Assembly: GCA_019454045.1 (NCBI GenBank)
Contig: SKCR01031821.1
Location: 22,334 to 86,333, forward strand
DNA length: 64,000 nucleotides
Reading direction: 5' to 3'
From: Zanthoxylum bungeanum
Taxonomy: Eukaryota > Streptophyta > Magnoliopsida > Sapindales > Rutaceae
Both the position numbers and the translations under genes were made by a program. This document shows, in pieces, positions 1-45,780 of the stretch (within the stretch, counting starts at the first letter, position 1; the number at the start of each line of letters is the position of its first letter). Under the pieces are notes generated by a model. It was not told where the DNA came from. It made no database searches and saw nothing but the letters and a program-made list of their open reading frames with translations.

Positions 1-1138
1 TGACTAAGTATGGATACCGCCTGGTTGGTCGGTTGGTAATTAATTATTAATTTGACTTAATCAGGATACCGCCTATATGGCTGGTTGGTAATTATCACGC
101 AAAGTTAATATATTATATTAAGGGAGATATCTAAAATAGTAGTAATAAAAGTTGATCCTCTAACCCCAGCATTTTCTTTTATTGTACTTTTACTTTATTT
201 AGTTTCAGTAATTTACTTTTCAGCAATTTACTTTTCAGTAATTTACTTTTATTTATTTTTTACTTTTTACTTTTTACTTTTTTTACTTTTCAGCAATTTA
301 CTTTTCAGTATTTAATTTTCAGAATTTACTTTATGTCTTTTATTTAATTTAAATTTTTACTACCCGTAAATATGTGTCGTAACTAAGCCAGTTATCTGGG
401 GTTGTGATGAAATCCAATATCACCGGTTTATAAGGGGTTAAATTATAGTTTGGGTAATATAAAGGTTTATTTATTGAGTCTTAATCTTAATGCTTTTTAT
501 TAACTTATTGAGTCTTAATCTTAATGCTTTTTATTAACTGGCCATTAATAAAATTGAACTGGTAAACTTAAAATGAACTAGACATAGGGATTTTAGGTTT
601 CAGCCTTAGACTCAATAGCCCACGATCTTCCTTGAGGATAGATAACCCTTTAATTGATTTCCTTACAGGATAGGAATATACCTGTCGGGCGGGGATAGCC
701 ATAATTGGAACTTAAACTTAATGAATCCAGATAATTTGGTTGACATAGACATATGGTTCAATTGGGTTAAACTGGGTATTTGTGTCTGACCATCGACAGA
801 GGCTTACACATAATTTAGTGTTCCAGGGTAATAAATCAATATTTTACCCAACTATAAGATAACCACTTCATCTTTAAAATGATATTGGAAGACATCACAA
901 CCCTAGATAGTTTTTAATATTGAATTTTCTTAAAACCTATTTTCGACAATTTTATTTACTTGCTTTTAAATTTAGAATCGTCAACATTTCAAATCAATCA
1001 ATCAACCTTTTAGATACTAGTAATCATTTGACCTCATAAAATTAATAGTTTTGATATTAAGTCCTTGTGGGATCGATATTCTTATACTACTTGAACGATA
1101 CGTGCGCTTGCGTTATACGTGTGTGTTTACGCCGGTTA
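1..1138 (+). mobile_element. LTR (3' part) of Athila-type element copy 1
   Basis: This stretch is nearly identical to 6680-7797, the second half of the complete LTR at 5673-7797, so it is the downstream part of an LTR whose start lies before the window. It has the same T-rich block with repeated TTTACTTTTCAG (about 170-340) and ends in TTTACGCCGGTTA. One visible difference is an extra 31-bp repeat unit near 480-540. No gene is visible in it. Confidence 0.85.
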
Positions 1139-3708: not shown

Positions 3709-4362
3709 ATGGAAGCCACTTCAAGAAGACGAGTTGAAACCATCTGTGTGTTTTGCGGTAGTAGTGTTGGAAATAAACCACAATACGTAGAAGCAGCACA
3801 AGAATTGGGTTGAGTCTTAGCTGTAAGGAATATGCACTTAATATATGGCGGAGGCAATCTCGGACTTATGGGGATCGTTTCAAAGGCAGTACAGGAAGGA
3901 GGCAGTCACGTTTTGGGAATCATCACAAAACCCTTGGCAGAGGCAAATCTTATTGGATCATCAAACGGAGAGGAACTAATCGTGCCAGGTATGTCTGAAC
4001 GACTGGTAGAAATGAATAACCGTGCTGATGCTTTTATTGCTTTGCCAGGTGGCTTGGGCACATTGGAGGAAATTTTTATAGTACTATCTTGGGCGAACCT
4101 GAACATACACCAGAAACCAATTGGACTGCTCAACGTTGATGGATTTTATGATTTTCTTTGTGTGTTTCTTGATGATGCTCGGAGAAATGGGTTCGTGTCA
4201 AAACCTTTTAAAGAACTCATCTTTACTGCCAGAACTGCTCCGGATCTAATAGACCAACTCATAGCCTATGAACCACAAGTTGACCCCATCCTTTCAAAGA
4301 TAAATTGGTCCGAGGACGATCGTGGTAAGAGGCGTCGTGTTAATCTGGATCTTAACCTTTAA
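3709..4362 (+). pseudogene. LOG: captured LONELY GUY (LOG) cytokinin-activating enzyme, copy 1, with premature stop
   Basis: This is an intronless LOG-type gene of 217 codons plus stop. Codon 35 (3811-3813) is TGA where copy 2 has CGA; otherwise the frame is open to the stop at 4360-4362. LOG proteins release free cytokinin base from cytokinin riboside 5'-monophosphate in the cytosol or nucleus. Rossmann-type motifs are present: YGGGNLGLMG and the family signature PGGLGTLEE at residues 113-121. An internal ATG at codon 42 (3832) could give an N-truncated product lacking the first strand, which is unlikely to be active. About 18 residues differ from copy 2. Ordinary plant LOG genes have several introns, so this is a processed capture carried by the retroelement. 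Confidence 0.9.
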
Positions 4363-5672: not shown

Positions 5673-7797
5673 TGATGAGAGGAAAATATATCAATATTTA
5701 CCGCCCCTTTAACTTAATATTTTGTTTAGTTTCTCGGGTTTGATGAACGTTTTGATGTGTTTTAGTTTATTTTGCAGATAACATAATATCGGGTCTCAAT
5801 GAAATCATTTAGGATGAAATATGGGTCAAATAAGGGCAATTATTGGACTTGATATATTAATTTTGGAGATTGGAAACTTGAAAAGGCGTTTTGACGAAGT
5901 GCAGTTTTGGGAATTCCAGTTTTGCGCATCTGTCATATTTCAGCATAACTTTTTACTCAGATATCGGATTGAGCTGATTCAAGTGTCAGATTAAAGAATA
6001 CTCAAATATCTACAACTTTGAAAGAGAAAATATTTTAGAATTCTGAAGATATCATGACCGAAATTGATGAACCATCCAGAAGTGTGTGATGTGTAATTAT
6101 TAAAGTCATTATCAATCATTTTCAAAGCAAAATATAAATTAATAAATAATTAATAAAAATTATCAAATCAACACCAAACAAGATAAGCAATTAGTGGAGC
6201 AATTATGGATTTGGTGGAGTAATTAGCGGAGGAATTAATAATGGATTTGGTGGAGAATTTGATGGATGATTTGATATAGGCAAAATTTTGCCTATAAATA
6301 CCAAGCCATTTCATTTGTAAAATTCATACTTTCTTCTTTGAAATTCCTAATGAATAAATAAGAAGATTGTATCTTGTTTGTTTATTTACAGCTTCCAGTA
6401 ATTAATTTCCGCTTTCGCACTTTCTTTTCTTTACTTTTCAGTTTTTACTTTCCGCAATTTACTTTTACGCACAAACCTTTTCTTTCTTTACTTTTGCAGT
6501 TTTTATTTTTCAAGCAATGAGGAGGTAACTCCCCTTTGCTGGGGTAAAAGGTAAAGCTTTTATTATTGCTATCTAGATTAATCTCCCTTAAATATAAAAT
6601 ATAAACTATTTAAAATCTGACTTAATGAGGATATCGCTATATTGGCCGGTTGGAAATTAATTATAAATTGGTTTTAACCTGACTAAGTATGGATACCGCC
6701 TGGTTGGTCGGTTGGTAATTAATTATTAATTTGACTTAACCAGGATACCGCCTATATGGCTGGTTGGTAATTATCACGCAAAGTTAATATATTATATTAA
6801 GGGAGATATCTAAAATAGTAGTAATAAAAGTTGATCCTCTAACCCCAGCATTTTCTTTTATTGTACTTTTACTTTATTTAATTTCAGTAATTTACTTTTC
6901 AGCAATTTACTTTCAGTAATTTACTTTTATTTATTTTTTACTTTTTACTTTTTACTTTTACTTTTTACTTTTTTTTTACTTTTCAGCAATTTACTTTTCA
7001 GTATTTAATTTTCAGAATTTACTTTATGTCTTTTATTTTATTTAAAATTTTACTACCAATAAATATGTGTCGTAACTAAGCCAGTTATCTGGGGTTGTGA
7101 TGAAATCCAATATCACCGGTTTATAAGGGGTTAAATTATAGTTTGGGTAATATAAAGGTTTATTTATTGAGTCTTAATCTTAATGCTTTTTATTAACTGG
7201 CCATTAATAAAATTGAACTGGTAAACTTAAAATGAACTAGACATAGGGATTTTAGGTTTCAGCCTTAGACTCAATAGCCCACGATCTTCCTTGAGGATAG
7301 ATAACCCTTTAATGGATTTCCTTACAGGATAGGAATATACCTGTCGGGCGGGGGTAGCCATAATTGGAACTTAAACTTAATGAATCCAGATAATTTGGTT
7401 GACATAGACATATGGTTCAATTGGGTTAAACTGGGTATTTGTGTCTGACCATCGACAGAGGCTTACACATAATTTAGTGTTCCAGGTTAATAAATCAATA
7501 TTTTACCCAACTATAAGATAACCACTTCATCTTTAAAATGATATTGGAAGACATCACAACCCTAGATAGTTTTTAATATTGAATTTTCTTAAAACCTATT
7601 TTCGACAATTTTATTTACTTGCTTTTAAATTTAGAATCGTCACCATTTCAAATCAATCAATCAACCTTTTAGATACTAGTAATCATTTGACCTCATAAAA
7701 TTAATAGTTTTGATATTAAGTCCTCGTGGGATCGATATTTTTATACTACTTGAACGATACGTGCGCTTGCTTTATACGTGTGTGTTTACGCCGGTTA
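5673..7797 (+). mobile_element. complete 3' LTR of Athila-type copy 1
   Basis: The LTR starts TGATGAGAGG directly after the polypurine tract and ends CGCCGGTTA. The next bases, CCATG, fit a 5-bp target duplication, because uninterrupted copia C2 has CCATG at the matching point. The U3 lacks the G-box array seen in copy 2. A TATAAATA lies at 6293-6300. The U5 is rich in TTTACTTTTCAG repeats. It shares start, U5 and end with the copy-2 LTRs. Confidence 0.85.
6293..6300 (+). promoter_or_regulatory. TATA box of copy-1 LTR
   Basis: TATAAATA is the best TATA box in the LTR, about 620 bp after its start, with transcription expected some 30 bp downstream. It matches by position the box in copy 2 at 24441-24448 (- strand). 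Confidence 0.6.
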
Positions 7798-16306: not shown

Positions 16307-17035
16307 ATGAGTGAGTCAGATAACGAGGGTTCTCGAATGGATCAGTTGGAGACTAATCTCACTAAGATTACCGAGCAGTTGCAAGCTTTGACCGCCGCTG
16401 TGGCCATTTTGACCATACCTCATATAGCTAATGATAGAAAGTTCTGCAACCGGAATAAAAAGACCATTTGGGGACCTTTGGGGACCAAGCCCACTCCTTC
16501 TGAGGTCGCCCCTATCAGGAACATACGATTCTCCAATTTTGGTAGACCTTTGTCAAAGGTGTTTGAAGAGTTGAAAAGACAAGGACTCCTAAGTCCCTTA
16601 GAATCTAAACCACTTCCAAACCCTGTGCCACGCTACCTTGATCTAAACCTATACTGTTACCTCCACCAGCAAAGAGGCCATGACACCGACAGCTGTGCCC
16701 GTCTCAGACATGAAATCCAGAACCTCATCGACTCCCATAAAATACCCGACCCGGAAAAAGAACAACCCAACACACACAGAAAACCTCTACCCACCCACAT
16801 AATCAACTCCAGCCTACCCGACAGCACTGTCCTCCAAACTCACGACCACCAAGCTTCCCGCATGGGGATATGGAGCAATAATAGTAAAAATGAAACGGAG
16901 CAGAAAGGGGAAAGTAAATGGGAAAAAGAATTACAGCAGTTAGAGGATCTGATGTCCGAAAAAAGCAAGAATATTGAAGAAGACAAAATTGAAAATTATG
17001 GGGATGTTTGTTTTCCTGATCTTATTCAATTGTGA
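16307..17035 (+). CDS. gag of Tat/Ogre-type element, shortened
   Basis: This is a 242-residue open frame. N-terminal residues 10-40 are a heptad-like helix. The middle is diagnostic for Tat gag, with GRPLSKVFEELKRQGLLSPL (about 79-98) and a zinc-knuckle-like YCYLHQQRGHDTDSC (about 116-130; C-x3-H-x4-H-x4-C), then RLRHEIQNLID. The usual several-hundred-residue gag core is missing between the first helix and the GRPLSKVFEEL block, and no protease follows. It probably cannot form particles alone. Confidence 0.75.
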   Translation: MSESDNEGSRMDQLETNLTKITEQLQALTAAVAILTIPHIANDRKFCNRNKKTIWGPLGTKPTPSEVAPIRNIRFSNFGRPLSKVFEELKRQGLLSPLESKPLPNPVPRYLDLNLYCYLHQQRGHDTDSCARLRHEIQNLIDSHKIPDPEKEQPNTHRKPLPTHIINSSLPDSTVLQTHDHQASRMGIWSNNSKNETEQKGESKWEKELQQLEDLMSEKSKNIEEDKIENYGDVCFPDLIQL

Positions 17036-18043: not shown

Positions 18044-18234
18044 AGGGAGAGAAGACTGAGCAATCACCAGAAGGACTGGCGGAAGACCTAACCCAACGGA
18101 ATAGGAAATTCATTCACGCATGCATGCATACACGTAACGTACTTGCATTCTTTTTTGTGTTTGTTCTGTTTTGTATTTACATGTTTCAAAAAGAATGAGA
18201 AAGCGGCAAATGTAAGCCAACAAGAATCAGCAAC

Positions 18235-18450
18235 ACATCAGTATCAGTTTCGGGAATGGATCCCAGGGTTAAGGCCCATATCAGTATTAGTTTCGGGAAT
18301 GGATCCCAGGGTTGAGGCCCACATTAGTATCAGTCGGAAATGAATCCCAGGGTTGAGGCCCACATCAGTATCAGTCGGAAATGAATCCCAGGGTTGAGGC
18401 CCACATCAGTGTCAGTTTCAGGAATGGATCCCAGGGTTGAGGCCCATATT
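18235..18450 (+). repeat. minisatellite, first block, in Tat/Ogre 3' region
   Basis: Four to five units of about 50 bp with GGGAATGGATCCCAGGGTTGAGGCCCA and ATCAGTATCAGT. They are related to the block at 19325-20065. Confidence 0.8.
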
Positions 18451-19324: not shown

Positions 19325-20065
19325 GGCACGATTCGGGAATGAACCATCACATCAGCAATGCCTCGGGGATGAGGTTCAGTATGCTGGGAATGGCACTCTG
19401 GGAATGGAGCATGGGTCGAGGCCCACATCAGTATCAGTTTGGGGATGAGTCCCACGGTCGAGGCCCATACATCAGTAGTAGTTTGGGATACGTCCCAGGG
19501 TCAAGGCCCACACATCAATAGTTTGGCATGCGTCCCAGGGTCGAGGCCCACACATCTGATGTTTGGGATGCGTCCCAGGGTCGAGGCCCACACATCAGCA
19601 GTTTGGGATGAGTCCCAGGGTCGAGCCCCACACATCTAATGTTTGGGATGTGTCCTAGGGTCGAGGCCCACATCAGCAGTTTGGGATGCGTCCCAGGGTC
19701 GAGGCCCACACATCTGATGTTTGGGATGCGTCCCAAGGTCGAGGCCCATATCAGCAAGTTTGGGATGCGTCCCAGGGTCGAGGCCCACACATCTGATGTT
19801 TGGGATGCGTTCTAGAGTCGATGCCCACATCAGCAGTTTGGGATGCGTCCTAGGGTTGAGGCCCACACATCTGATGTTTGGGATGAGTCCCAGTGTCGAG
19901 GCCCACATCAATAGTTTGGGATGCGTCCCAGGGTCGAGGCCCACATCAGTAGCAGTTTGGGATGCGTCCCAGGGTCGAGGCCTATATCAGCAGTTTTTCG
20001 GATGCGTCCCAAGGTCGAGGCCCACACATCATCAGCAGTTCGGGATATGTCCCAGGGTCGAGGCC
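19325..20065 (+). repeat. minisatellite, main block, ~40-bp units
   Basis: About 16 units of 38-42 bp read GTTTGGGATGCGTCCCAGGG then TCGAGGCCCACACATC-like. Each contains the near-palindrome GGGATGCGTCCC. The array lies between integrase and 3' LTR, where Tat/Ogre elements are known to carry hypervariable tandem repeats. Long frames across it are by-products of the repeat. Confidence 0.9.
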
Positions 20066-20350
20066 CATAACTTATCCGCACAGTTCAGGAAAAAAGCCCA
20101 CACTCGGTGGTTCGAGAACAAAGCCCAGGGGTCGAAGCACCTTGCCACCATATCAGTTAAGTTCGGTAGTGATTCCTAGAGATCGCAGCATCTTGTAGGG
20201 ATGAACCTCAGGGGTCGCAGCACCTCACCACCAGATCAACTCAGTTCGAAGAAACAGGCAAGTCAAGCGGCAGCTGGCGAGCCAGGTAAGTGAAAATGCA
20301 TTGCATAACTTTGATAGGATTGTCACTGTTACACACTGCACAAGTCCCAT

Positions 20351-20365: not shown

Positions 20366-22773
20366 TGTAGGCACTACATTTTTGCATATAAGTCCTGATG
20401 ATGAGCATCGTACGGAGACACTACCATTTAAGCTGCGGAAGTCACGGGAAACAGACGTCAGAAGAGAAAAGTCAGAAATCAATACCTTGTTGGACTTAAT
20501 TCATTTGCTTAGCTTCGGGTTTGCTCGTTGGTTATCTGTTTTAAAATTCATCCTTGGCCTAAAACCTCGCAATCCACACCAAGCCACACACTAAGCCCAC
20601 ACATACCAAGCCCACCAAAAAGAACAAACCACACGCCCCAAGCCTTCCAATCACACGCCCAAGCTCATTCAAACCCATCCAAAATAATAATTAACACATT
20701 AAACACATGTTGAAATCTAAACAAATCGCCTTCCCGAATTAAAGAAATCTAATCAAATCACATTCCCTAATTAAAGAAATCAAATCAAATCCCATAAATC
20801 ACCTTCCTAATTAAATTAAATCACATGCCTAAACTAAATAAAATCAAATCAAATCAAATCTCACAAATCATCTTCATAATTTAATAGATCTTTTCCTTGT
20901 AGTACACTAATTAGGAGATATCCCCCATAATTGCATGATACTTTCCCTACCCGTACAAGGACAACTTCAACCCTCTCATATAAAAAGACACCCAAACCAA
21001 GCCCTTAGACCCCTAGCTAGCATCCTCACGACACAAACACCAAACATCCTCACGCCAATTCCATAAATAAAAAACCCTAGCCACTTCTCTCTCTACCCAT
21101 CACGCACTCACTGCCCTCACAAAAAAATAAACCGACCAAAAATCAAAAGTAAAGACACACGACAATAGCTTCTCATGCATGTGCCCCTTCAACTTCCAGC
21201 CTTCACGCCAACTGAGCTGCTTCACGTCCACTAAGTTGCTTCATGTTGCTGTCGTTTTAAACTCTCCACACCACTCTCCATAAACCCAAAAGCCATACGC
21301 CCTTTGCTCCACTCACGAACTATACGTACGTGAAAGACACTCTCACCAAAATAACAAACAGAAGCCCTCTCACGCACCCTACACACATCACACCCTCAGC
21401 AGCACCCTCATGCACCATACACACATCACACCCTTAGCAGCCCCTCACACACGCCATAACACCATGCACAACAACCCTTCACAAAATAGCCCTTAAACTG
21501 CCCTTCAAGCCACCCAACATGTCCCTCCTTAAAAGCAAATAAATCCCACTCACCAACTTATCACTCACTAGCTCACTCTCGGCAGCCCTCACTAATAGAT
21601 CCAACACAGCCACCAGCCCACTAGTACAAGCATCAAAACCCTTTAGCCGCACCACAAACAGCCCGCACAGCCCCCATATTCACCACAAAATAGTCCCGAA
21701 AAACTGCACAACCAGAACATCAAAAATTGCAACAAAAACAATCCCAAAACCGCACAAACCGTCACCCAAAACATCCCTCAAATACCAGAAATAGTAACCA
21801 AACACAATGACCAGAAAACACAATAAAAACAGAGAAAACAGCAGCCTAAAACAGTGAAGCGATGAAGGAAAACATTGAACCAGTAAATCGGAGGAGTTGC
21901 GGAGCATTAACCCTTCTGACGGCCGTGTAATGCACTTCCAAGAGGCAACTTAAAAGGTAAGACCTGAGGGCACCCTTTTATTTATTCCCGTTCATTTTTT
22001 ATTATTTATTAGTAATACTTCGCATGCGTATTGTTGATTTATGTATGTTTTGGCCATGGGATGAATGATTTTGTGATATCTCTCGTGGTATATCGGATGG
22101 AAACCCATACGTAAATTCCGTACCGAATTCGAATGGACGGTAGTGCGGTCTGAACTTTGGATATAATTCCACGTACCGCTTGAGAAACGCACATATTTTG
22201 TTTCATCTAATCTTGTGTTTATTCATTATTTATTAGAAATAGTATGTTATTTTTATGCATGATTTAGCTGTTTAGTATGTTATTTTTATACATGATTTAA
22301 TTGTTTCTTTCGCACTAGGAGCTTAATTATATCTCTTCAATGTTTATGTTTAGACAATAGATTATTTATTTATGTTTTCGTATTCATCAATTTAATGTGT
22401 CCATGAGATTGTGTGCTTGCCGTTATTTTAACTTACTTTTATGCATGCAAACTTAGATATAGGTTATATGCAAATTTAGATATAGTTGTATGCGAACTTA
22501 GATGTAGGTTATCTTGCGTATGTATGTTGCGTAGACTTGGTTAGATTATTGCACAAATCCATTCATTACAAGTGGCATAAGTAAGGGACCATTCTGAACC
22601 CAACGGTTTGAGATCTTCCCTTACGAGAGGTGGGCGTGGCCTTAAATCATTTCCCAGTTCACATTGGGTGGCGACTCTATTTTATTTCTCCGATTTAGTT
22701 CCCACACGGGCTACTCCGTACTCCCGACCGGGCCGCGAACCTGGAACAGCGTCGCCGATTTCTGTGTCCTACA
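20366..22773 (+). mobile_element. complete 3' LTR of Tat/Ogre-type element
   Basis: It is 2408 bp, starting TGTAGG and ending CCTACA. It has an A/C-rich, gene-free U3 with CAAGCCCAC and AAATCAAATC runs (20560-20880), then CTCTCACGCACC repeats (21365-21450). It joins Del/Tekay-like LTR sequence at 22774. Confidence 0.85.
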
Positions 22774-23069
22774 GCAATATGAATAAGTTTTCATTGACTT
22801 ATACATGTGAGCTATGTGTATAGAGGTTGAATTGGTAAAGTGTGATAAGGAATGAGAGTGAGCTAAGCATTTCTTAAATGAAAGAGATGACGATTGTTAA
22901 ATGCCATAGTATCTAAATTCGGAGGATTGAGTATATTAGTATGTTTGATTTATACATATATAAGTATGACTACTCTGATGATAAAGTAGTGTTTGTCATG
23001 TATATACTTGTGTATGAAGACCGTGTGGGATATGAGATTTGATTTCATAATGAGGAGTATATTCATAAG
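22774..23069 (+). mobile_element. Del/Tekay-like LTR fragment, left copy
   Basis: This is about 300 bp of the LTR whose remainder is at 32942-34231, and it is duplicated almost exactly at 30443-30739. It ends in ATAAG (23065-23069), the target duplication of Athila-type copy 2. Confidence 0.65.
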
Positions 23070-24440
23070 TGACCGGCGTAAACACACATGTATAACGCAA
23101 TCGTATCGTTCAAGTAGTATAAAAATATCGATCCCACGAGGACTTAATATCTAAACTATTAATTATATGAGGTCAAATGATTACTAATATCTAAAAGATT
23201 TATTGATTGATTTGAAATGGTGATGATTCTAAATTTAAAAGCAAGTAAATAAAATTGTCGAAAATAGGTTTTAAGAAAATTCAATATTAAAAACTATCTA
23301 GGGCTGTGATTTCTTCCAATATCATTTTAAAGATGAAGTGGTTATCTTAAAGTTGGGTAATATATTGATTTATTAACCTGGAACACTAAATTATGTGTAA
23401 GCCTCTGTCGATGGTCAGACACAAATACCCAGTTTAACCCAATTGAACCATATATCTATGTCAACCAAATTATCTGGATTCATTAAGTTTAAGTTCCAAT
23501 TATGGCTACCCCCGCCCGACAGGTATATTCCTATCCTGTAAGGAAATCTATTAAAGGGTTATCTATCCTCAAGGAAGATCGTGGGCTATTGAGTCTAAGG
23601 CTGAAACCTAAAATCCTTATGTCAAGTTCATTTTAGATTTACCAGATCAATTTTATTAATGGCCAGTTAATGAAAAAAGCATTAAGTTTAAGAATCAATA
23701 AATAAATCTTTATATTACCCAAGCTATAATCTAACCCTTATAAAACGGTGATATTGGATTTCATCACAACCCCAGATAACTAATTTAGTTACAACACATA
23801 ACTAGGGCTAGTAAAAACTTGAAAATAAAAGACATAAAGTAAAAATGCGGTAAAGTAAATACTGAAAAGTAAATTACAATAAAATAAAATGCTAAGGTAA
23901 AAGGAATTACTTTTACTACTACTAATTTAGATATCTCCCATAAAATAATATATAAACTTGTGATTCTTTTTCCAACCAGCCATAAAGGCGGTAACCTGAT
24001 TAAGTCAATTAAGTCCAACCAGCCATAAAGGCGGAACCAAAATTAAATTACCAACCGACCAATCTGGCGGTATCCTTTATTAGTCAGGTTTAAACCAGAT
24101 TAAAATGAATTACCAACCGACCAATCTGGCGGTATCTTTTTAAGTCAATATTTTAAATAGTGAATATATTATTTTTAAGGGAGATTAATCTAAATAGTAA
24201 CAGAAAAAGAATTACCTTCCACCCTAGCTGGGGGACTTACCTCATCATGGTAAATAATAAAAACTGTAAAAAGTAAAAAGTAAAAATTAAATTACTATAT
24301 TAACAAAACGTAATTAAAATAAATTACAAAACTAAAAAAACTAAAAAACTAAAAATTAAAAGAAAGTAGAGAGAGAAACTCTCTCTTTAGATAGAATATA
24401 AGAGAGAGAGCGGTGCACTGAATTTTGAAATCTCGAGCTC

Positions 24441-24448
24441 AATTTATA
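24441..24448 (-). promoter_or_regulatory. TATA box of copy-2 LTR
   Basis: TATAAATT on the minus strand is the only good box downstream of the G-box array and lies about 120 bp from its nearest motif. The right-hand LTR has the same box near 32112-32119. Confidence 0.65.
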
Positions 24449-24568
24449 GGCCTCGGTAGGCTTCCAGCGTCGTGACGCCAGGGCCCTCAGCGTCGCTACG
24501 CCAGCTTTTGTCGACGTAGCACGCTCTGGGTCACCGGTTTGAAGATTCTGGATAAGCTGATAAGGTGA

Positions 24569-24965
24569 CACGTGGCGCGGTGGTTGGGCTTCAATTATTG
24601 TGACACGTGGAGGCTTCTGATTGGTCGCTGAGATTCTTATCCGCCACGTGTCAGATAAGGATTAGATACTCAATGATTGATGCTGACGTGGCGTGACGTG
24701 ACGGTGATGTGGCGGTGACGTGGCGATATGTGGGAAAGAGACTGTCGGCACCGTAGGATTGCGACACGTGGCACTTCCTGATTGGCTGATGATGATGTGG
24801 CATGACACGTGGCAATGTTGACTTGTTGACTTGCTGATGTGGCTGATGACATGGAGACACGTAGGTTGCCACGTGGCGCACGTGGCGATGATGACTGTCG
24901 GCACTGTAGGATGCTGACACGTGGCACGGCGCTTGTTAGCAGATCGACTTTGATGGTGACACGTG
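24569..24965 (-). promoter_or_regulatory. G-box/ABRE array in LTR U3 (9 CACGTG in 397 bp)
   Basis: CACGTG occurs at 24569, 24604, 24645, 24765, 24806, 24870, 24879, 24918 and 24960, mostly inside GACACGTGGC, with further ACGTGGC or ACGTGAC cores near 24685-24720. ACGTGGC is the core ABA-responsive element bound by plant bZIP factors; CACGTG is also bound by bHLH/PIF factors. One CACGTG per 4 kb is expected by chance. Position upstream of the TATA box suggests a stress- or light-responsive promoter; the response itself is inferred. Confidence 0.75.
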
Positions 24966-25276
24966 GCACGACGCATTTTAGCAAAGTCAAACTTTTCTCA
25001 GATTCTGATTTGTGGACCCGGCGCACGTTAGCACTGTTCGGCGCATTTTAGACATCGCGACACTGAAGGCTTGGTGTCGCGACGCGGACAATTTACAAAA
25101 ATGCCTTTTTTGTCCAATTTTCACTGTTTTGACCCAAATCACCTCCAGAATGTCATGAAACTTTATTTATCTACAAAATAACACAAAACACATCAAAATA
25201 TTCACAAAACTCAAGAAACTATACAAAATATTAGGTTTAAATAAGTGGGAAATAGTGATAGATTTACCACTCATCA

Positions 25277-26607
25277 CACCCCCAAACCTAACATTTTGCT
25301 AGTACTCGAGCAAAAAATAGAGTAAAATAACATAAATAAATTAACTAAGCCACTTTCGTAGGGATCACGGTTGCATTTAGCGTATGCAACAAGCCTTTAA
25401 ACCCCTAGGTGTCCCTAGTGGACGAGTTGTAATCTCGTGAGGGTTTACAGCAATGATACCCATAAACATTTTACAAAAGTAAAAAGGTAGTAAAAATAAT
25501 GCACACAAAAGCAAAAAGACAAGCGAAAAGAGAATAAAGATGTTAGTGACTAATCAGGTGAAACTTCTACTCCAAGTTACTAGTTGTTTTGTTTTATTCT
25601 AAATTATTGAATAAGTGAATTCTCCGATTATTTTTACCATTCTTCATATACATAGCCAACATAATATTAAACAACTCATTTTTGCCCACAACAATCATAA
25701 GTGCAGTTGATAAGAGAGTAATATTTTTGTCCTAAAGTTCTATCAGATTTCACACCTTTTTGCAGCAATGGAATAATTTTTCTCATTTTTCTGATTTTTT
25801 CTTTGATTTTTCTCTATTTTTTTTTATTTATATACAATATCTTCCATCTATATAACAAGTGTTGGGTCGGTGGCTCCCAAACCAGTTGGCTTTAGGGCAC
25901 CAGGTGTTAAGACACCCCTACGGACTTAATTACTCAGACTTCAGATATATATATTTTTGCAGCATCTTTGATCCATGTAACGAGCTTTGGGCCAGTGACT
26001 CCCAAACCAGTTGGCTTTAGGGCACTAGGTGTTAAAACACCCTTACAGACTTAATAACTCGGATCTCAGACGTTTTTTTTTTTTTTTTTTTTACTCCATT
26101 GCTTTTTGAGATGTTTCCTCTAATTAAACTAGAGCACTGAATATTACAAACTTTTCAATTTTAGCTCATGTCCGTATGTTACTATATATGTTGATAATAT
26201 CTGTCAACTGAGCATATGAAGATCCATTTTAGTCCGTTTTAAGGAGAATTCACAAATTAAATAATTCAAAATGAAGTAAACAAAAATTAACTTGTTTCGA
26301 AATAGGTTTGAAATACGTCTCAGGAGTGGAAACTCCTTACTCAGCTATCTCTTACCAATTTCACCCTTTTAGTCATAATAAAAACACAAAAACGTAAAAT
26401 ATTTTTGTAATTTTTGAAAAATTTTCAATTTTTTTGTATTTTTCGAAAAATTTTGGACTAAAAATAAAAACAACACACAAACTAAAAATAAGGTACTGAT
26501 CAACTAATTCTCTCCCCCAAACCTAAATGAGACATTGTCCCCAATGTCTTAAACAGTAAAAGAGAGTTAAGAAGGTCGTACCTAGTTAGCTGAAATTCTA
26601 CAGGAAA
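25277..26607 (-). mobile_element. 3' internal untranslated region of copy 2
   Basis: This is the counterpart of 4363-5672. It contains the PPT complement CACCCCCAAACC (from 25276), tandem hairpin units (about 25855-26080), a poly-T run (26071-26092) and the ACATTG..CAATGT hairpin (26532-26547). There is no gene. Confidence 0.7.
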
Positions 26608-27261
26608 TTAAAGGTTAAGATCCAAATTAATCCGACGCCTCTTACCACGATCGTCCTCGTACCAATTTATCTTTGAAAGGATAGGGTCAACTTGTGGTTC
26701 ATAGGATATGAGTTGGTCTATTTGGTCCGGAGCAGTTCTGGCAGTGAAGAGGAGTTCTTTCATAGGTTTTGACACGAACCCATTTCTCCGAGCATCATCA
26801 AGAAACACACAAAGAAAATCATAAAATCCATCAACATTAAACAGTCCAAGCGGTTTCTGGTGTATGTTCAGGTTCGCCCAAGATAGTACTATAAATATTT
26901 CCTCCAATGTACCCAAGCCACCTGGCAAAGCGATAAAAGCATCAGCACAGTTAATCATTTCTACCAGTCGTTCAGATATACCTGGCACGATCAGTTCCTC
27001 TCTGTTTGATGATCCAATAAGATTTGCCTCAGCCAAGGGTTTTGGGATGATTCCCAAAACATGACTGCCTCCTTCCTGTACAGCCTTTGAAATGATCCCC
27101 ATTAGTCCGAGATTGCCTCCGCCATATATTAAGTGCATATTCCTTGCAGCTAAGACTCGACCCAATTCCTGTGCTGCTTCTACGTATTGTGGCTTAGTAC
27201 CAACACTAGTACCGCAAAACACACAGATGTTTTCAACTCGTCTTCTTGAAGTGGCTTCCAT
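26608..27261 (-). CDS. LOG: captured LONELY GUY (LOG) cytokinin riboside 5'-monophosphate phosphoribohydrolase, intact
   Basis: This is an uninterrupted 217-residue, intronless LOG gene inside a retrotransposon. It would convert cytokinin nucleotides directly to active free bases. The N-terminal nucleotide-binding strand is ICVFCGTSVG (12-21). YGGGNLGLMG is at 46-55. The signature PGGLGTLEE is at 113-121, with the conserved Arg at 98 in SERLVEM; where most plant LOGs have Arg-Lys, here the next residue is Leu. Length fits the family (about 210-220). The C-terminus is unusual: a basic RGKRRR (205-210) followed by LDLNL (213-217), an LxLxL repression-type motif, also present in copy 1. By hand alignment, copies differ at about 20 replacement and 17 silent sites, which suggests selection for protein function during divergence. 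A TATA-like box lies at 27318-27325. Confidence 0.92.
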   Translation of the reverse strand: MEATSRRRVENICVFCGTSVGTKPQYVEAAQELGRVLAARNMHLIYGGGNLGLMGIISKAVQEGGSHVLGIIPKPLAEANLIGSSNREELIVPGISERLVEMINCADAFIALPGGLGTLEEIFIVLSWANLNIHQKPLGLFNVDGFYDFLCVFLDDARRNGFVSKPMKELLFTARTAPDQIDQLISYEPQVDPILSKINWYEDDRGKRRRINLDLNL

Positions 27262-27317: not shown

Positions 27318-27325
27318 AATTTATA
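27318..27325 (-). promoter_or_regulatory. TATA-like box upstream of intact LOG
   Basis: TATAAATT, 57 bp before the ATG, is conserved with copy 1 (3645-3652). A polypyrimidine-CAG acceptor-like site lies just upstream, so a spliced LTR transcript is an alternative source of LOG mRNA. Confidence 0.4.
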
Positions 27326-27520
27326 GTACCTGAAAAGGGTGAGTACAAATAGCACAAGTATCTTCCAGAGGACGATTAGTAGCGAATTAATATCGTGATA
27401 GTCAAAAAGGTTTGGATCCCGTCGGAGAAAATTAAAAAAAAACAACAAAACAAATCACAATTATTAAGAAAAGACAAAGAGATATAATATTTACAAGAAA
27501 AGTAACGGCTTGATTGACGT

Positions 27521-28069: not shown

Positions 28070-28207
28070 CTTGAAATGACTTAATCTGCAAAAACTAAAC
28101 ACACAAAAATAAAACACACCAAATCACAATTTATACACAAATTGCATGGGTTGCCTCCCTGCTAGCGCTAAGTTTAAAGTCGTCAGCCAGACTTGACTTC
28201 TCAAACG

Positions 28208-30442
28208 TTAAGCTGGATCTGAAAGTGTAACACTTTCTTTTTGTCGCCTAAATGATTCTCCCCAGTAGTGCTTGACACGCTTGTTTTTAACCTTGAAAGT
28301 TTTGTTAGCGTCAGGATCATGTATCGCAACGGCTCTATTTGGTAAAACTTTGGTGATCACAAATGGACCTGACCACCGTGATTTTGGCTTCCATGGGAAG
28401 AATTTCACCATTGATTTGTTTAACAGTACCTTCTGCCCTGATTCCAGTTGTATGCGCACTAACTTTTCATTATGTCTTTTCTTGCCCTTTTCTTTGTACA
28501 ATTTGGCATCATCAAAAGGCTGATTGTGAAATTCCTCCAATTCGTTGAGTTGGTGGAACTTTTTCTCTTCTGTTGCTTGTAGTGCAAGAATTGGCTCATT
28601 CAGTACAAAAGACACTTTATCTTTAGGCTCCACAGGCAATTGACATGTTTTAAGTTTGTCAGTAGAACTTTGCATTGCATTGGAGTTCTGAATGGTACTG
28701 TGTATCATATCGAGTTTGAAACATTCCTCCTTCTTTTCATCATCTGGGAAATTCATGGCCTTGAAAACATTGAATGTTACTTCTTGGTCTTGTACCCTCA
28801 TGGTTAATTCTCCTTTTTGTACATCAATAATGGTTCGACCTGTAGCCAAGAATGGTCTCCCAATGATGATTGGCACGTCCGCGTCTTCCTCCATATCAAG
28901 GACAATAAAATCTGCTGGGAAAAAGAAATTTGTCAACCTTGACCAGCACATCCTCGACTACGCCTCTTGGAAATACGAGCGTTCTATCAGCAAGTTGCAG
29001 TGAGACTGAAGTTGGCATTGTTTCTCCAATCTGTAATTTCCTGAAAATAGAAAAAGGCATCAAGTTAACACTCGCACCTAAATCACACAAAGCCTTACCA
29101 AATTTATGTTCTCCTATGACGCAAGGAACAGTGAAACTGCCAGGATCTTTCAACTTCGGGGGAAGTTTCCTCTGAATGATGGCACTGCATTCTTCTGTTA
29201 ATGCTACTGTCTCGTAATCTCCCAATCTCCATTTTCGTGAAAGAATATCTTTCATGAATTTGGCATAGGTGGGCATTTGTTCCAACGCTTCTGCAAATGG
29301 AATGTTGATATGCAGCTTTTTGAAGATCTCCAAGAACCGAGAAAACTGCTTGTCCAATTTGTTCTTCTGAAGACGTTGAGGAAAAGGTGGAGGTGGAATG
29401 ATCTGTTCTTTTTCCTTTGCTTCTTTTTCCTCCATCTGTTGCTTTGTTTCTTTTGGAACTTCCTCAGTAGTTGTTTTGGCTCCAACATCTTTGTTGATTT
29501 CAGTACCGCTTTTTAACAAGATGGCATGACATTGCTCATTCCCCATGTTTCTTGGATTTGGCTTTGTGTTGCTAGGAAGGGTACCTGGCGGTCTGTAACT
29601 CTGAGCATTTGCCAGTTGTCCAATTTGATTCTCCAGTGCTTTAATAGAAGCAGATTGATTTTGAATTAATGCTGCTTGGGATTGAAACATAGCATCATAT
29701 CTTGCTGCGTGAGAGTCGTGTTTTGCTTCTATTTTTTCAAGTGGGTCAACACTTCTGTTATTCCTGGTTCTTTTGCTTGCTCCTGGCTTTTGTTCTGTTG
29801 CTGGAATTCAGGTGGTGGATAGTTCTGCTGTTGGCCTGAATTGTTGCTCCATGAAAAATTGGGATGATTCCTCCACCCTGGGTTGTAGGTGTTGGAATAT
29901 GGATTGTTCCCCTGTCTGTTGAAATTGTTGACATAATTAACCGTTTCTTCAAGTTGGTTCAACTCTGGTGCTCCTCCATATGGTGAACTTGTGGATCCAG
30001 TGGTAAGAGTCTCCATGAATTTGCATATCTGATCCAGCTTGGCGTTGACTGCTGTATTGGCTCCACTTTCATAAATTCCTGCAATTCTTTGGATCATGCT
30101 CCTTTCTGTTGGCCACAAAGAATTGTTGTTGGCCATTTCTTCGATTAGGTCTCAAGCTTGATCTTCTCCTTTTGCCATTAAAGCTCCTCCAGCAGCAGCA
30201 TCGATTGTGGTTCTCATTATTCCAGAAAGTCCATTATAGAATGTTTGGACTTGAAGCCATTTTGGAATCTCATGGTGAGGACATTTCCGGAGTAAATCTT
30301 TGTACCTTTCCCAAGCTTCGTAGAGGGATTCTGAATCTTATTGTACAAAGGATGTGATGTCATTCCTCAGCTTTCCGGTTCTGGCTGGTGGAAAGTTCTT
30401 TGCAAGAAATTTGGTGGGTAAAGTGTTCCAGTTCTGTCCTAC
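28208..30442 (-). pseudogene. Athila-type gag-protease-integrase C-terminus, internally deleted and frameshifted
   Basis: Read right to left. The gag core enters at 30437 (NWNTLPTKFLAKNFPPARTG), with WERYKDLLRKCPHHEIPKW and stops near 30340 and 30150. The gag C-terminal part is at 30136-29729, then a frame change. Protease is at 29690-28896, with the catalytic LCDLGASVNLMPF. Another frame change near 28920-28950 leads into 28951-28208, which runs in frame from protease (ILG-to-IIGRPFLAT variant) to the integrase C-terminus. RT, RNase H and the integrase catalytic core are absent. Compared with copy 1 the fusion point is the same and here has no frameshift. Confidence 0.88.
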
Positions 30443-30739
30443 AGCAATATGAATAAGTTGTCATTGACTTATACATGTGAGCTATGTGTATAGAGGTTGA
30501 ATTGGTAAAGTGTGATAAGGAATGAGAGTGAGCTAAGCATTTCTTAAATGAAAGAGATGACGACTGTTAAATGCCATAGTATCTGAATTCGGAGGATTGA
30601 GTATATTAGTATGTTTGATTTATACATATATAAGTATGACTACTCTGATGATAAAGTAGTGTTTGTCATGTATATACTTGTGTATGAAGACCGTGTGGGA
30701 TATGAGATTTGATTTCATAATGAGGTGTATATTCATAAG
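30443..30739 (+). repeat. duplicated flank copy (matches 22774-23069)
   Basis: It differs from the left copy at only a few bases. It lies between gag sequence and the right LTR, where the element's own leader should be. The junction on the gag side shares TCCTACA with the Tat/Ogre LTR end at 22767-22773, a possible microhomology. Confidence 0.85.
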
Positions 30740-32941
30740 TGACCGGCGTAAACACACATGTATAACGCAAGCGTATCGTTCAAGTAGTATAAAAATATCG
30801 ATCCCACGAGGACTTAATATCTAAACTATTAATTATATGAGGTCAAATGATTACTAATATCTAAAAGATTGATTGATTGATTTGAAATGGTGATGATTCT
30901 AAATTTAAAAGCAAGTAAATAAAATTTTCGAAAATAGGTTTTAAGAAAATTCAATATTAAAAACTATCTAGGGTTGTGATTTCTTCCAATATCATTTTAA
31001 AGATGAAGTGGTTATCTTAAAGTTGGGTAATATATTGATTTATTAACCTGGAACACTAAATTATGTGTAAGCCTCTGTCGATGGTCAGACACAAATACCC
31101 AGTTTAACCCAATTGAACCATATATCTATGTCAACCAAATTATCTGGATTCATTAAGTTTAAGTTCCAATTATGGCTACCCCCGCCCGACAGGTATATTC
31201 CTATCCTGTAAGGAAATCTATTAAAGGGTTATCTATCCTCAAGGAAGATCGTGGGCTATTGAGTCTAGGGCTGAAACCTAAAATCCCTATGTCTAGTTCA
31301 TTTTAGATTTACCAGATCAATTTTATTAATGGCCAGTTAATGAAAAAAGCATTAAGTTTAAGAATCAATAAATAAATCTTTATATTACCCAAGCTATAAT
31401 CTAACCCTTATAAAACGGTGATATTGGATTTCATCACAACCCCAGATAACTAATTTAGTTACAACACATAACTAGGGCTAGTAAAAACTTGAAAATAAAA
31501 GACATAAAGTAAAAATGCGGTAAAGTAAATACTGAAAAGTAAATTACAATAAAATAAAATGCTAAGGTAAAAGGAATTACTTTTACTACTACTAATTTAG
31601 ATATCTCCCATAAAATAATATATAAACTTGTGATTCTTTTTCCAACCAGCCATAAAGGCGGTAACCTGATTAAGTCAAATTAAGTCCAACCAGCCATAAA
31701 GGCGGAACCAAAATTAAATTACCAACCGACCAATCTGGCGGTATCCTTTATTAGTCAGGTTTAAACCAGATTAAAATGAATTACCAACCGACCAATCTGG
31801 CGGTATCCTTTTTAAGTCAATATTTTAAATAGTGAATATATTATTTTTAAGGGAGATTAATCTAAATAGTAACAGTAAAAGAATTATCTTTCACCCTAGC
31901 TGGGGGAGTTACCTCTTCATGGTAAATAATAAAATCTGTAAAAAGTAAAAAATAAAAATTAAATTACTATATTAACAAAACGTAATTAAAATAAATTACA
32001 AAACTAAAAAAACTAAAAAACTAAAAATTAGAAGAAAGTAGAGAGAGAAACTCTCTCTTTAGATAGAATATAAGAGAGAGAGCGGTGCACTGAATTCTGA
32101 AATCTCGAGCTCAATTTATAGGCCTCGGTAGGCTTCCAGCGTCGCGACGCCAGGGCCCTCAGCGTCGCTACGCCAGCTTTTGTCGACGTGGCACGCTCTG
32201 GTTCACCGGTTTGAAGATTCTGGATAAGCTGATAAGGTGACACGTGGCACTGTGGTTGGGCTTCAATTATTGTGACACGTGGAGGCTTCTGATTGGTCGC
32301 TGAGATTCTTATCCGCCACGTGTCAGATAAGGATTAGACACTCAATGATTGATGTTGACGTGGCGGTGACATGGCGGTGATGTTGCGGTGACGTGGCGAC
32401 ACGTGGGAAAGAGATTGTCGACACCGTAGGATTGCGACTCGTGGCACTTCCTGATTGGCTGATGATGATGTGGCACGACACGTGGCAATGTTGACTTGCT
32501 GACGTGGCTGATGACATGGAGACACGTAGGATGCCACCTGGCGCACGTGGCGATGATGACTGTCGGCACCGTAGGATGCTAACACGTGGCACGGCGCTTG
32601 TTAGCAGATCGGCTGTGATGGTGACACGTGGCACAGCGCATTTTAGCAAAGTCAAACTTTTCTCAGATTCTGATTTGTGGACCAGGCGCACGTTAGCACT
32701 GTTCGGCGCATTTTAGACGTCGCGACGTTGAAGGCTTGGCGTCGCGACGCGGACAATTTACAAAAATGCCCTTTTTGTCCAATTTTCACTGTTTTGACCC
32801 AAATCACCTCCAGAATGTCCTGAAGCTTTATTTATCTACAAAATAACACAAAACACATCAAAATATTCACAAAACTCAAGAAACTATACAAAATATTATG
32901 TTTAAATGAGTGGGAAATAGTGATAGATTTACCACTCATCA
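30740..32941 (-). mobile_element. 5' LTR of copy 2 (or solo LTR adjoining a duplicated unit)
   Basis: Nearly identical to 23070-25276, including the U3 G-box array and TATA box. It is followed by the target duplication ATAAG (32942-32946). Confidence 0.88.
32241..32630 (-). promoter_or_regulatory. G-box/ABRE array in right LTR (8 CACGTG)
   Basis: CACGTG occurs at 32241, 32276, 32317, 32402, 32479, 32544, 32583 and 32625. One site present in the left LTR reads ACTCGTGG here and another is lost. The array is otherwise in register with the left copy. Confidence 0.75.
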
Positions 32942-34231
32942 ATAAGTTTGAAGTATATGTATGTATATGAGTATTTTAATGATGTTTGGATTGTTTGTCG
33001 TGTATGTGCATGTTTATAAGGAATCATGTGATGAGTTTATGTTATATGGTATGTGAGCCTGTTTGTATGTTTGATTTGATGATGTGACCTTTTATGTATT
33101 GAATGTTATGTGTGTTTCCTATTTGATTGAGTGATGACTGTAGATATGTCTGAGTGTGTGTATGTGTGTGATGAAACAGATGTAACTATCAGAGGTTATA
33201 GAGTGTGTTTGCTAAATTGTATTTGATATATACGTATGTGTGTAAGAGTTTTGAAACTGTATTTGCATGTTTATAAAAGAAGTGTGCTAAGGTATGCGTG
33301 AATGTAAATGAAACCCAAGTGTTAAGCTATGGTAAGATTGTCGTGGATTAAAGAAGGTTAGAAAAAGATTGTGTTGATATTGAAGAAAGTTTGTTAGATT
33401 CACCGATTTGATGATATTTCAAAAATATTTACTGTGATAAGTATTAATATGTGACTTCACGTTTCAACATTGAAATGGTTTCGATGTTATGTGATGTACT
33501 TTGTGATTTTGAATCCATGTTTCGTGTGCTTTGAATCTCTAGCCACTACATTGACAATATGTAAATACGAAAATTTGATATTGGTAAAGTATAAAGGATA
33601 AGAGAATGTTGATAATTCTAAGACTTGTAATAAATTGAAAACTCTGAAAAATTTCTAATGTGATTAATTTGTATGTTTTGTTCGTAATGCTTGCATGATT
33701 ACTTACTGAGTTTTTAAAACTCGCACCAAACCAGTTTGCTAGTTTTGCAGGCTGGATTCTAATTTATGGTATATGTGTATATTCATAATTAACCACTTCA
33801 ACATTGGATGTTATACTTGAGACGCGGATCACCCAAGCGGCAGTCACCCTCGCAAGTGTCTTAGGAGAAGTTTAGAAGTTTAAAAAGATTAAAATATTTT
33901 TTTATTGCTTATTTGTCGTGCTGAGCACGCTGTCTGTATAAATACATGTTAGAAATATTTTGATTGCTTATGATGTTGTGGGCACTGAGCCTTTGAGTGT
34001 TATAGATGATATGGGAACGGAGCCCTTAGGTGTGATTTTGATGTGTGGGTGTGGACCTGAGGTCTATTTTGATTTATGATGTTCATTTTAGGTTTTTTTG
34101 GTGCTGGATTAAGATCCAGGTTGTCTATTTTTAGAATACATCATGCCGGATTTTCGGTAAGTTTAGAGGCTTATGGAGATGGGTTAATCCTGTCTCCTGC
34201 CGGTAGCATCCTGCCTCTGGCGGGGTGTTAC
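32942..34231 (+). mobile_element. Del/Tekay-like LTR, right part
   Basis: This continues the fragment at 22774-23069. It contains TTACTGAGTTTTTAAAACTCGCA (33704-33726), typical of Del/Tekay chromovirus LTRs, and ends GGCGGGGTGTTACA followed by a decayed initiator-Met primer site (AACGGTAGAGCTTG). No internal region survives. Confidence 0.6.
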
Positions 34232-34847
34232 AAACGGTAGAGCTTGAATTAAAAAAAGTGTCAATAAGTTCATTTTCGTAACCTCTCTAACTCGAGCAAT
34301 TAAGTCTGTATAGGTGTAATAACACTTAGTGCCCTAAGACCAACTGGTCTGGGAGTCATTGGCCCAAAGCTCATTAAATGGTTTAAGGAGAAAGCTTAAG
34401 AAAAATGGACACTTCTTCTTTTTAACATATGAGATCCGAGCAATTAAGTCTGCATGGGTGTCTTATCACATATTGTCTTAAAGCCAACTGGTTTGAGATT
34501 CACTGGCCCAAAGCTCGTTACAATGATTGAAGACGTATTATTATTTTTAAAAAAAAAAACTATTTCTGTATATAAATAATCCGCCATTACCAAAAGATGT
34601 AAATTCTGATATAACTTTAGAATAAAATATTATTCTATTTTCAACAAGACTTGTGAATATTGTAGGCACAGTGAATTGATTAATACTTTCTCTTATGTGT
34701 ATATTGAATAATGGTAAAAAGTGCATGAGAGTTTTCTTATTTGATAATTTAGAAAGAAATAAAACAATTACTATCTTGGATAAGATTTTTTTTTCTTTTT
34801 AGTTTTCGCTTAAATTACTAGGGACTAGTAATAAGTTGTTGGGGGTG
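34232..34847 (+). mobile_element. third Athila-like remnant, 3' internal region
   Basis: Only the end of an Athila-like element is left. It has two diverged hairpin-bearing tandem units (about 34285-34535, with CCAACTGGTCTGGGAGTCAT and CCCAAAGCTCGTTAC), a poly-A run and the polypurine-like GTTGGGGG ending at 34847. No cargo gene is visible. Confidence 0.65.
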
Positions 34848-44502: not shown

Positions 44503-45780
44503 ATGGCTGACAAGAAACAGAAACAAAAACGCCGGCGACCCGACCCGTCATCAGACGACGAATCCGATATCCCTTTCAAGAATATCCTCAAACCCGACCC
44601 GGCTATCCTCGAAACCCTAAAACTCCTGCTAACCGATGCTTCAACCTCCTCCTCCTCCTCATCGAAACCCCAAACTCTATCAGACCTCAATCTCTCCGCC
44701 ACGTGTCGCGAAGTCAGCGACCTCTCACTCTCCGACGTCCAATCGGCGATCGAAACCCTAATCCTCCAAATAGCACACTCAATCCTCGCCGGCAACGGCT
44801 TCAGTTTCCAAGTCCCCTCACGCGCCTCCTCCAACCAACTCTACGTCCCCGAACTCGATCGCATCGTGCTAAAAGACAAAACTACCCTCCGCCCCTTCGC
44901 ACACGTGTCGTCCGTGCGCAAATCTACCATCACCGTCAAAATCATCTCTCTCATCCACCAACTCAGCCTGAAAAACATCCACGTCACCAAACGAGACCTG
45001 TTCTACACAGACGTAAAACTCTTCCAAGACCAGACCCAATCCGACAACGTTTTGGACGACGTCGCGTGTATTCTCGGCTGCACGCGATCCAGCCTCAACG
45101 TTGTCGCCGCTGAAAAGGGTGTCGTCGTCGGAAGACTGATTTTCAGCGACAATGGCGATATGATTGATTGTACTAAAATGGGAATGGGCGGGAAAGCGAT
45201 TCCGCCCAATATTGATCGAGTTGGTGACATGAAAAGCGATGCTATGTTTATACTTTTGGTGGAAAAAGATGCCGCTTACATGAGATTAGCTGAAGATAGG
45301 TTTTACAATCGATTTCCTTGTATCATTGTGACTGCAAAAGGCCAGCCTGATGTGGCAACAAGGTTGTTTTTGAGGAAGATGAAGATGGAATTGAAGTTAC
45401 CAGTGTTAGCTTTAGTTGATAGTGATCCTTATGGATTGAAAATTTTGTCAGTTTATGGATGTGGGTCGAAGAATATGTCTTATGACAGTGCAAATTTGAC
45501 TACGCCTGATATTAAGTGGTTGGGGATTAGGCCGAGTGATTTGGATAAGTATAAGATACCGGAGCAGTGTAGGTTGCCGATGACAGAACAGGATATAAAG
45601 ACGGGGAAGGATTTGCTGGAGGAGGATTTTGTGAAGAAGAATCCGGGGTGGGTTGAGGAGTTGAATTTGATGGTGAAGACTAAGCAGAAGGCTGAAATTC
45701 AGGCGCTGAGCTCCTTCGGGTTTCAGTATTTGTCTGAAGTTTACTTGCCTTTGAAACTGCAGCAGGAAGACTGGCTGTAA
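44503..45780 (+). CDS. TOP6A: DNA topoisomerase VI subunit A (SPO11-3/RHL2/BIN5 type)
   Basis: A single uninterrupted frame of 425 residues, close to the Arabidopsis protein's length (about 427). The protein is the DNA-cleaving subunit of plant topoisomerase VI, which with subunit B and partners removes catenanes during endoreduplication in the nucleus; Arabidopsis mutants are dwarf with poor endocycles. A variable basic N-terminus (KKQKQKRRR) resembles an NLS. A winged-helix domain carries the catalytic Tyr168 in TKRDLFYTD. The Toprim domain has Glu254 (LLVEKDAAY) and DSD 306-308 (LVDSDPYG). All catalytic residues are present and the second half is extremely conserved. The ATG at 44503 is the first in frame and gives the expected MADKK start. 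It is the only convincingly functional host gene in the window. Confidence 0.97.

Follow-up and report, generated by a model that had tools for sequence, protein, structure and literature searches.

What is a complete gene for a cytokinin-activating LOG enzyme doing inside a long terminal repeat (LTR) retrotransposon, and is it kept there for the protein it encodes? The question is raised by a 64,000-nucleotide stretch of contig SKCR01031821.1 of Zanthoxylum bungeanum (hereafter the window), in which an initial annotation reported a full, intronless LOG frame with the PGGxGTxxE signature between gypsy pol and a 3' LTR. The frame was described correctly: it runs from ATG to stop over 217 amino acids, matches Pfam domain PF03641 and carries PGGLGTLEE at codons 113-121 (Table 1). 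It does lie before the 3' LTR and in the sense of the element, but pol is mostly missing and another frame intervenes. This frame, a homolog of carlavirus-type nucleic-acid-binding proteins (NABP) that was overlooked in the initial annotation, is located between the pol remnant and LOG, directly upstream of the latter. We consider it fairly probable that an Athila-like (Ty3/gypsy) family keeps NABP and LOG in the position of env and uses them through the mechanism proposed below.

In the orientation of the element, the focal insertion reads 5' LTR, 305-bp flank piece, truncated gag/protease, integrase tail, NABP, LOG, polypurine tract and 3' LTR. Its LTRs start with TGATGAG and finish with GCCGGTCA, and CTTAT is found before the 5' LTR and after both LTRs. 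A second LOG copy (3709-4362) had been assigned to the same place in an independent insertion; both place and independence hold (target duplication CCATG versus CTTAT), but codon 35 of this copy is an in-frame stop. One gene is broken in each insertion of the window: LOG in the second, NABP (stop at codon 52) in the focal one. In both, the LTR, target duplication and flank are present twice with a truncated element between them (repeated flanks 1139-1952 and 7798-8612, 814 bp, 99.0% identical; 22765-23069 and 30435-30739, 304 bp, 98.7%), an arrangement that could reflect a solo LTR recombining with a full copy, tandem duplication, or a haplotype join by the assembler. Most of pol is gone from both copies, leaving by our reading a gag/protease stretch and the integrase tail; in stretch L035, which is homologous to the focal gag/protease region, Asp_protease matches fall below cutoff. 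Neither window copy is complete, since the primer-binding-site core GGCGCCG has no match anywhere in the window. A tandem-repeat stretch between LOG and the focal 3' LTR (25571-26083) has a 68-84% alike copy outside the element (34293-34780).

The LOG protein and a 75-residue piece of AtLOG3 served as queries against the assembly (3,956,113,105 bases, 51,709 contigs). The best 150 loci of the first search match at 93-100% and 141 of them lack an internal stop, under a ranking by protein score that favours intact copies; the second search gave at least 150 other loci without overlap with the first list, so that LOG matches occupy at least 300 distinct loci. The candidate numbers of a first look, 40,894 to 70,472, are not copy counts. 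Six contigs were inspected, and in four of them LOG lies inside an LTR pair with a 5-bp target duplication (Table 1); around LOG on C36297 and C27183 (the latter examined as a single stretch) no LTR pair was resolved. Target duplications and LTR ends of these four insertions and the two in the window were read by eye. The initial annotation had proposed a search for LTR-flanked LOG frames elsewhere in the genome. With four more LTR-bounded insertions and the locus count above, its view of LOG as moving retrotransposon cargo was right, and more strongly so than it had claimed. LOG matches on one strand are evenly spaced on contigs G000:C37395 (181228, 191786 and 202424; approximately 10.6 kb) and G000:C22646 (10465 and 18236; approximately 7.8 kb), which suggests tandem elements with common LTRs.

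The least reduced arrangement was seen on C28371, where reverse transcriptase (RT), RNase H and integrase domains, with below-cutoff protease matches, are followed by NABP and then LOG. The primer-binding site (PBS) TGGCGCCGTTGCCGGGGA, presumably matched to the 3' end of tRNA-Asp, is found in C28371 and C37272, and the visible part of TGGCGCCGTTGCCGGGGA in C29210 and C48130. The gene order in L035 is RT-RNase H-integrase, and the L035 frames scanned gave no chromodomain match. A substitution rate of 1.3e-8 per site per year is often used; at this rate the uncorrected differences of the four LTR pairs correspond to approximately 0.6 to 2.6 million years. Between the LTRs of C37272, which are 1.5% apart, there are only a 407-codon frame (no Pfam match above cutoff) and LOG. 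It is a young non-autonomous element with LOG as its one recognised enzyme. In the non-autonomous family the frame at L032:6501-7721 has 380 codons from the first ATG (407 stop to stop), is acidic by eye and stays below cutoff in Pfam. Among 30 loci chosen by LOG, NABP or a remnant of it lies within 1.5 kb upstream in 12 and is absent in 18; adding the second window copy gives 13 with and 18 without, one of the 18 having only 316 bp of upstream sequence. Judged by these regions, there are two families, one with NABP and LOG and a non-autonomous one with LOG but not NABP, whose upstream regions are largely unrelated. A more diverged NABP-LOG copy, with LOG 78% identical and NABP partial, lies beside another element at L031:1958-3001.

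Table 1. Parts of the two window insertions (coordinates in the window) and LTR pairs enclosing LOG on other contigs.
Feature	Position	Strand	Remarks
LOG ORF (retro-LOG), 217 aa, intact	26608..27261	-	ATG to stop, intronless; Pfam
PGGLGTLEE motif, LOG codons 113-121	26899..26925	-	seven motif positions kept in 31/31 own-genome copies
LOG C-terminal tail DDRGKRRRINLDLNL, basic cluster and L-x-L-x-L (EAR-like)	26611..26655	-	
Conserved CCCTTTTCAG/GTACTATAAATT, candidate splice acceptor and/or TATA box	27318..27339	-	69 nt upstream of LOG start
NABP (carlavirus-type nucleic-acid-binding) frame, 182 codons	27521..28069	-	one in-frame stop, codon 52
Candidate 3' splice acceptor TTTTTGCAG	28086..28087	-	16 nt upstream of NABP start
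Protease-region end joined to integrase C-terminal tail, pol deleted	28208..28951	-	by reading; no Pfam match
gag C-terminus / protease region	28896..29690	-	by reading; no Pfam match
Polypurine tract abutting 3' LTR	25277..25291	-	
3' LTR, TG..CA, 2207 bp	23070..25276	-	97.2% to 5' LTR; then CTTAT 23065-23069
5' LTR, 2202 bp	30740..32941	-	target duplication CTTAT 32942-32946, again 30735-30739
Repeat of the 3' flank (22765-23069), after 5' LTR and before truncated gag	30435..30739	-	98.7% over 304 bp
Second LOG copy	3709..4362	+	in-frame stop at codon 35
Second NABP copy, intact, 182 aa	2902..3450	+	Pfam on ORF 2869-3450
3' LTR of second insertion, ends TA	5673..7797	+	target duplication CCATG 7798-7802 and 1139-1143
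5' LTR end, second insertion	1..1138	+	its start is outside the window, at contig base 21331
LTR pair on C28371			LTRs 96.4% identical; target duplication GGCGT
LTR pair on C37272			LTRs 98.5% identical; target duplication AATAC
LTR pair on C29210			LTRs 93.1% identical; target duplication GTACT
LTR pair on C48130			LTRs 97.4% identical; target duplication ATAAG

The intact NABP of the second insertion (ORF 2869-3450) matches Viral_NABP (1.5e-6, 28.8 bits, cutoff 23) and Carla_C4 (1.8e-6, 28.2 bits, cutoff 20.9), and at E <= 0.01 each of these families (PF05515 and PF01623) is matched by 27 of the 31 members in the alignment. Relatives number 368 at E up to 0.01, and 65 of the best 120 are exactly 182 aa long; those named among the matches listed are from Populus, Xanthoceras, Acer, Rhamnella and Orobanche. 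No NABP relative was found in viral contigs (IMG/VR), where LOG has 23 loci at 26-50% identity. A sequence search of the PDB with NABP gave two matches only, both at E 0.5.

To what extent are these frames maintained as proteins? Loci chosen by LOG gave ratios of nonsynonymous to synonymous substitution (dN/dS) of 0.10-0.19, but these loci came from a ranking on the LOG protein itself and the estimate was not retained. Instead, 20 of at least 150 NABP matches, spaced down the list, were taken and the adjoining LOG was analysed. LOG was present in all 20 with a dN/dS of 0.21 (codon bootstrap 0.15-0.29, an interval that is only indicative because the copies share descent), while the same columns read in the wrong frames gave 0.70 and 2.01. 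This figure is unbiased except through linkage to well-preserved copies; the ranking does bias the NABP value of the same sample, 0.20 against 1.19 and 1.16 in the wrong frames. Within LOG, codons 10-186 gave 0.18 and the tail (203-217) 0.28, and the two window copies compared with each other gave 0.28 for LOG and 0.38 for NABP. The low, frame-specific dN/dS therefore makes LOG look like selected protein cargo rather than a passenger, although only 8 of the 20 frames are whole.

The encoded protein retains the features of its family. Window LOG matches PF03641 at 1.4e-33 and PF18306 at 4.3e-17, and its Lysine_decarbox (LOG) domain scores 116.3 bits against a curated cutoff of 27. The structural model (pLDDT 85.3, with residues 1-5 and 203-217 below 50) has AtLOG3 and AtLOG8 as its top matches, the best being AtLOG3 2a33 (TM 0.94 by target, E 4.8e-19), and adopts the type-I LOG fold; sequence identity to AtLOG3 is about 47% (91/195). 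R98 is kept in all 31 own-genome copies, as are the seven motif positions, and among 20 positions compared across these copies 18 are invariant, one differs in a single copy and codon 18 is T or S. Retro-LOG is predicted to release active cytokinin from riboside monophosphates. Taken together, these are real insertions carrying LOG and NABP in sense before the 3' LTR, in at least hundreds of copies, with purifying selection on both frames and with the LOG fold and motif kept.

The protein ends in KRRRINLDLNL, a basic stretch followed by L-x-L-x-L, which resemble a nuclear localization signal (NLS) and an EAR motif, respectively. This tail raises the alternative that LOG has been repurposed, acting in the nucleus as a regulator that recruits a TOPLESS-type co-repressor, with catalysis secondary or lost. 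The tail is disordered in the model and yet recurs in homologs approximately 50% identical, its basic cluster being present in 94 of 97 full-length sequences from the best 120 matches and 79 of the 97 having a strict LxLxL among their final ten residues, and its dN/dS in the Zanthoxylum genome is 0.28. However, the core is more constrained (0.18), and at 19 of the 20 listed positions no more than one of 31 copies departs from the window residue; strict LxLxL is missing from the other 18 full-length homologs, and so short a motif may arise by chance in tails that share ancestry. We therefore regard repurposing as unlikely.

That LOG was captured once and has been carried along without function is a poorer account still, and quite improbable. 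Many single copies are broken, the second window copy among them, and gene transduction leaving one or few copies is known (PMC11963269). Against this stand the dN/dS of a sample that was not chosen by LOG, with its wrong-frame controls, the retention of LOG in two families with largely unrelated upstream regions, and the related proteins found, among the matches listed, in Populus, Reevesia, Paulownia and Xanthoceras.

Conserved non-coding sequence near the two frames points to candidate expression signals. TTTTTGCAG, ahead of NABP, is identical in every sequence reaching that position (11-22 per column). Upstream of LOG, the 22-nt island CCCTTTTCAG/GTACTATAAATT has a mean identity to the window copy of 95% in the NABP family and of 98% in the other; the 100 nt ahead of it and the sequence after it stand at 87% and 79% in the former and at 79% and 91% in the latter. 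The AG of the island is kept at 94-100%, one column is as low as 47% among NABP-family sequences, and the exact form with YAG occurs in 14/33 NABP-family and 16/18 other-family sequences. The island may be a splice acceptor or a TATA box, or may serve as both. NABP and LOG would then be translated from spliced subgenomic mRNAs via these acceptor-like sites, or LOG might alternatively be expressed from a short promoter. Conservation just upstream of LOG could also mean that the constraint serves an RNA or DNA function, such as packaging or splicing, rather than the protein; this is very improbable, as the constraint is frame-specific. Finally, the insertion of retroelements around an ordinary LOG gene, for which the complete frame is the sole point in favour, has next to no probability and is rejected because LOG lies within LTR pairs sharing target duplications at six places, at least 300 loci exist and other copies carry LOG too; moreover, retro-LOG is intronless, whereas exon numbers of peanut LOG genes range from 3 to 7, with 7 in the majority of them (PMC13257298).

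Having weighed these alternatives, we return to a selected NABP-LOG pair and propose how it may serve the element. In cells transcribing the element, LOG would release active cytokinin from riboside monophosphates, and NABP would act like its viral relatives as a silencing suppressor, a transcription factor, or both; carlavirus cysteine-rich proteins (CRPs) are described as silencing suppressors, and p12 of Chrysanthemum virus B as a transcription factor causing hyperplasia (PMC12172455). Together the two would favour dividing, less-silenced cells, and new copies would therefore enter lineages that form gametes.

Several observations weigh against this proposal. The NABP Pfam scores are modest and its structural model is poor (pLDDT 58.3). 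Of the 12 LOG-chosen loci with NABP, 7 carry stops inside that frame; since NABP is also absent from 18 of 31 LOG-chosen copies, the pairing is not obligatory. In the NABP-chosen sample LOG is whole from ATG to stop in 8/20, ends early in 10/20 and has a start missed by the scan in 2/20, and dN/dS rises to 1.17 in codons 1-9 (few changes) and to 0.49 in codons 187-202. The gag region of C28371 is scattered over several frames, and the gag-pol of all closely inspected copies has defects or deletions, so no complete working element is presented here. Expression, enzyme activity and benefit to the element are predictions from sequence. In addition, no donor gene was identified, because own-genome searches with the AtLOG3 piece, aimed at a canonical LOG with introns, returned, in each of two identity ranges (56-60% and 69-76%), at least 150 rows that were all read as retro copies.

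The origin of LOG had been described as a processed capture since moved with the element, with a tree suggested for finding the donor. LOG is indeed carried and multiplied by an Athila-like element, but processed capture is unproven for want of that donor. A tree of 103 rows does place window LOG and its 98 best homologs apart from AtLOG3 and AtLOG8 (96/93), which hints at an old acquisition. The retro-LOG lineage is likely old and separate, as judged against only two plant references and from homologs that may or may not themselves lie in retroelements.

Citrus, like Zanthoxylum, belongs to the Sapindales. Two Citrus species are reported to have YgdH (LOG-family) domains among their Gypsy consensus sequences, as is Populus trichocarpa once a filter was off (PMC9289625, which cites Steinbauerova et al. 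2011); LOG cargo in plant Gypsy elements is thus already in print. The accessible text of that paper gives only domain and species for these elements, with selection, tail, NABP, insertion anatomy and a non-autonomous family undescribed there. It also notes that extra open reading frames (ORFs) in plant retrotransposons are well known, mostly without known domains. In titles and abstract openings, with subscription journals largely uncovered, no report was found of the NABP-LOG pair, of selection on retro-LOG or of NABP in retrotransposons, and a review on extra ORFs (PMC7264820) does not contain the words cytokinin, LOG, decarboxylase, zinc, carlavirus or Citrus. As far as this literature extends, no report was found that anticipates the NABP pairing, the selection signal, the tail or the LOG-only non-autonomous family.

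How do these elements compare with known systems? With Athila and its relatives Calypso and Diaspora (Ty3/gypsy) they share long LTRs with TG..CA ends, a tRNA-Asp-type PBS a few bases past the LTR (in Calypso and Diaspora 5 bp past it; PMC1142308), the RT-RNase H-integrase order and a further ORF in sense orientation after pol and before the 3' LTR. TG..CA ends with 5-bp target duplications fit that lineage, the second window LTR, which ends in TA, being an exception. Most Athila-type elements have an env-like ORF, whereas here NABP and LOG are found, no env-like gene was recognised, and a non-autonomous branch has LOG without pol; the likeness is one of organisation, known without placement in an RT tree. 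Retro-LOG has the fold and motif of AtLOG3 and AtLOG8 but is intronless, mobile and in a separate tree group; the basic and LxLxL tail may be an addition of retro-LOG, in a comparison that did not extend to the last residues of AtLOG3 and AtLOG8. Like the cysteine-rich NABPs (CRP, p12) of carlaviruses and allexiviruses, the NABP has a basic stretch and a Cys-finger region, but it is retrotransposon-encoded and has a conserved C-terminal half past the matched region. Orchid Gypsy elements with AlkB have likewise fixed an added enzyme whose type occurs in flexiviruses too (PMC9289625); AlkB is an RNA demethylase with in vitro activity demonstrated, whereas the hormone activation by retro-LOG is predicted.

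Elsewhere in the window, one clear host gene was recognised, an intact single-frame TOP6A/SPO11-3 (44503-45780, plus strand) whose best three matches, in Acer, Citrus and Xanthoceras, are all at 91%, the other 117 rows listed being at 88% or less, a pattern that points to a plant of the order Sapindales. Minisatellite arrays with 40-41 bp units lie at 18234-18446 and 19413-20067, the second with a 78-bp higher order, and upstream of them an ORF (16307-17035) is gag-like by eye, with no Pfam match.

In summary, the retention of LOG and NABP in hundreds of copies suggests that the element gains from manipulating its host. Because LOG chemistry is known and purifying selection is frame-specific over many copies, such a gain from host-type cargo is directly testable. 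A broader reading is tentative and, on balance, doubtful: that plants have here their own analogue of the retroviruses that carry oncogenes. In this reading, a retrotransposon lineage passed on vertically in several eudicot orders would have kept, under selection, two genes for manipulating the host, one a silencing suppressor/transcription factor of viral origin and the other an enzyme that activates cytokinin and bears a nuclear co-repressor tail, and hormone-driven proliferation would place new copies in germ-forming lineages. For annotation, the finding is a warning that a plant gene model labelled 'LOG' may in some cases belong to a transposon. The pairing of LOG with a homolog of viral silencing suppressors also provides an example of genes passing between RNA viruses and LTR retrotransposons.
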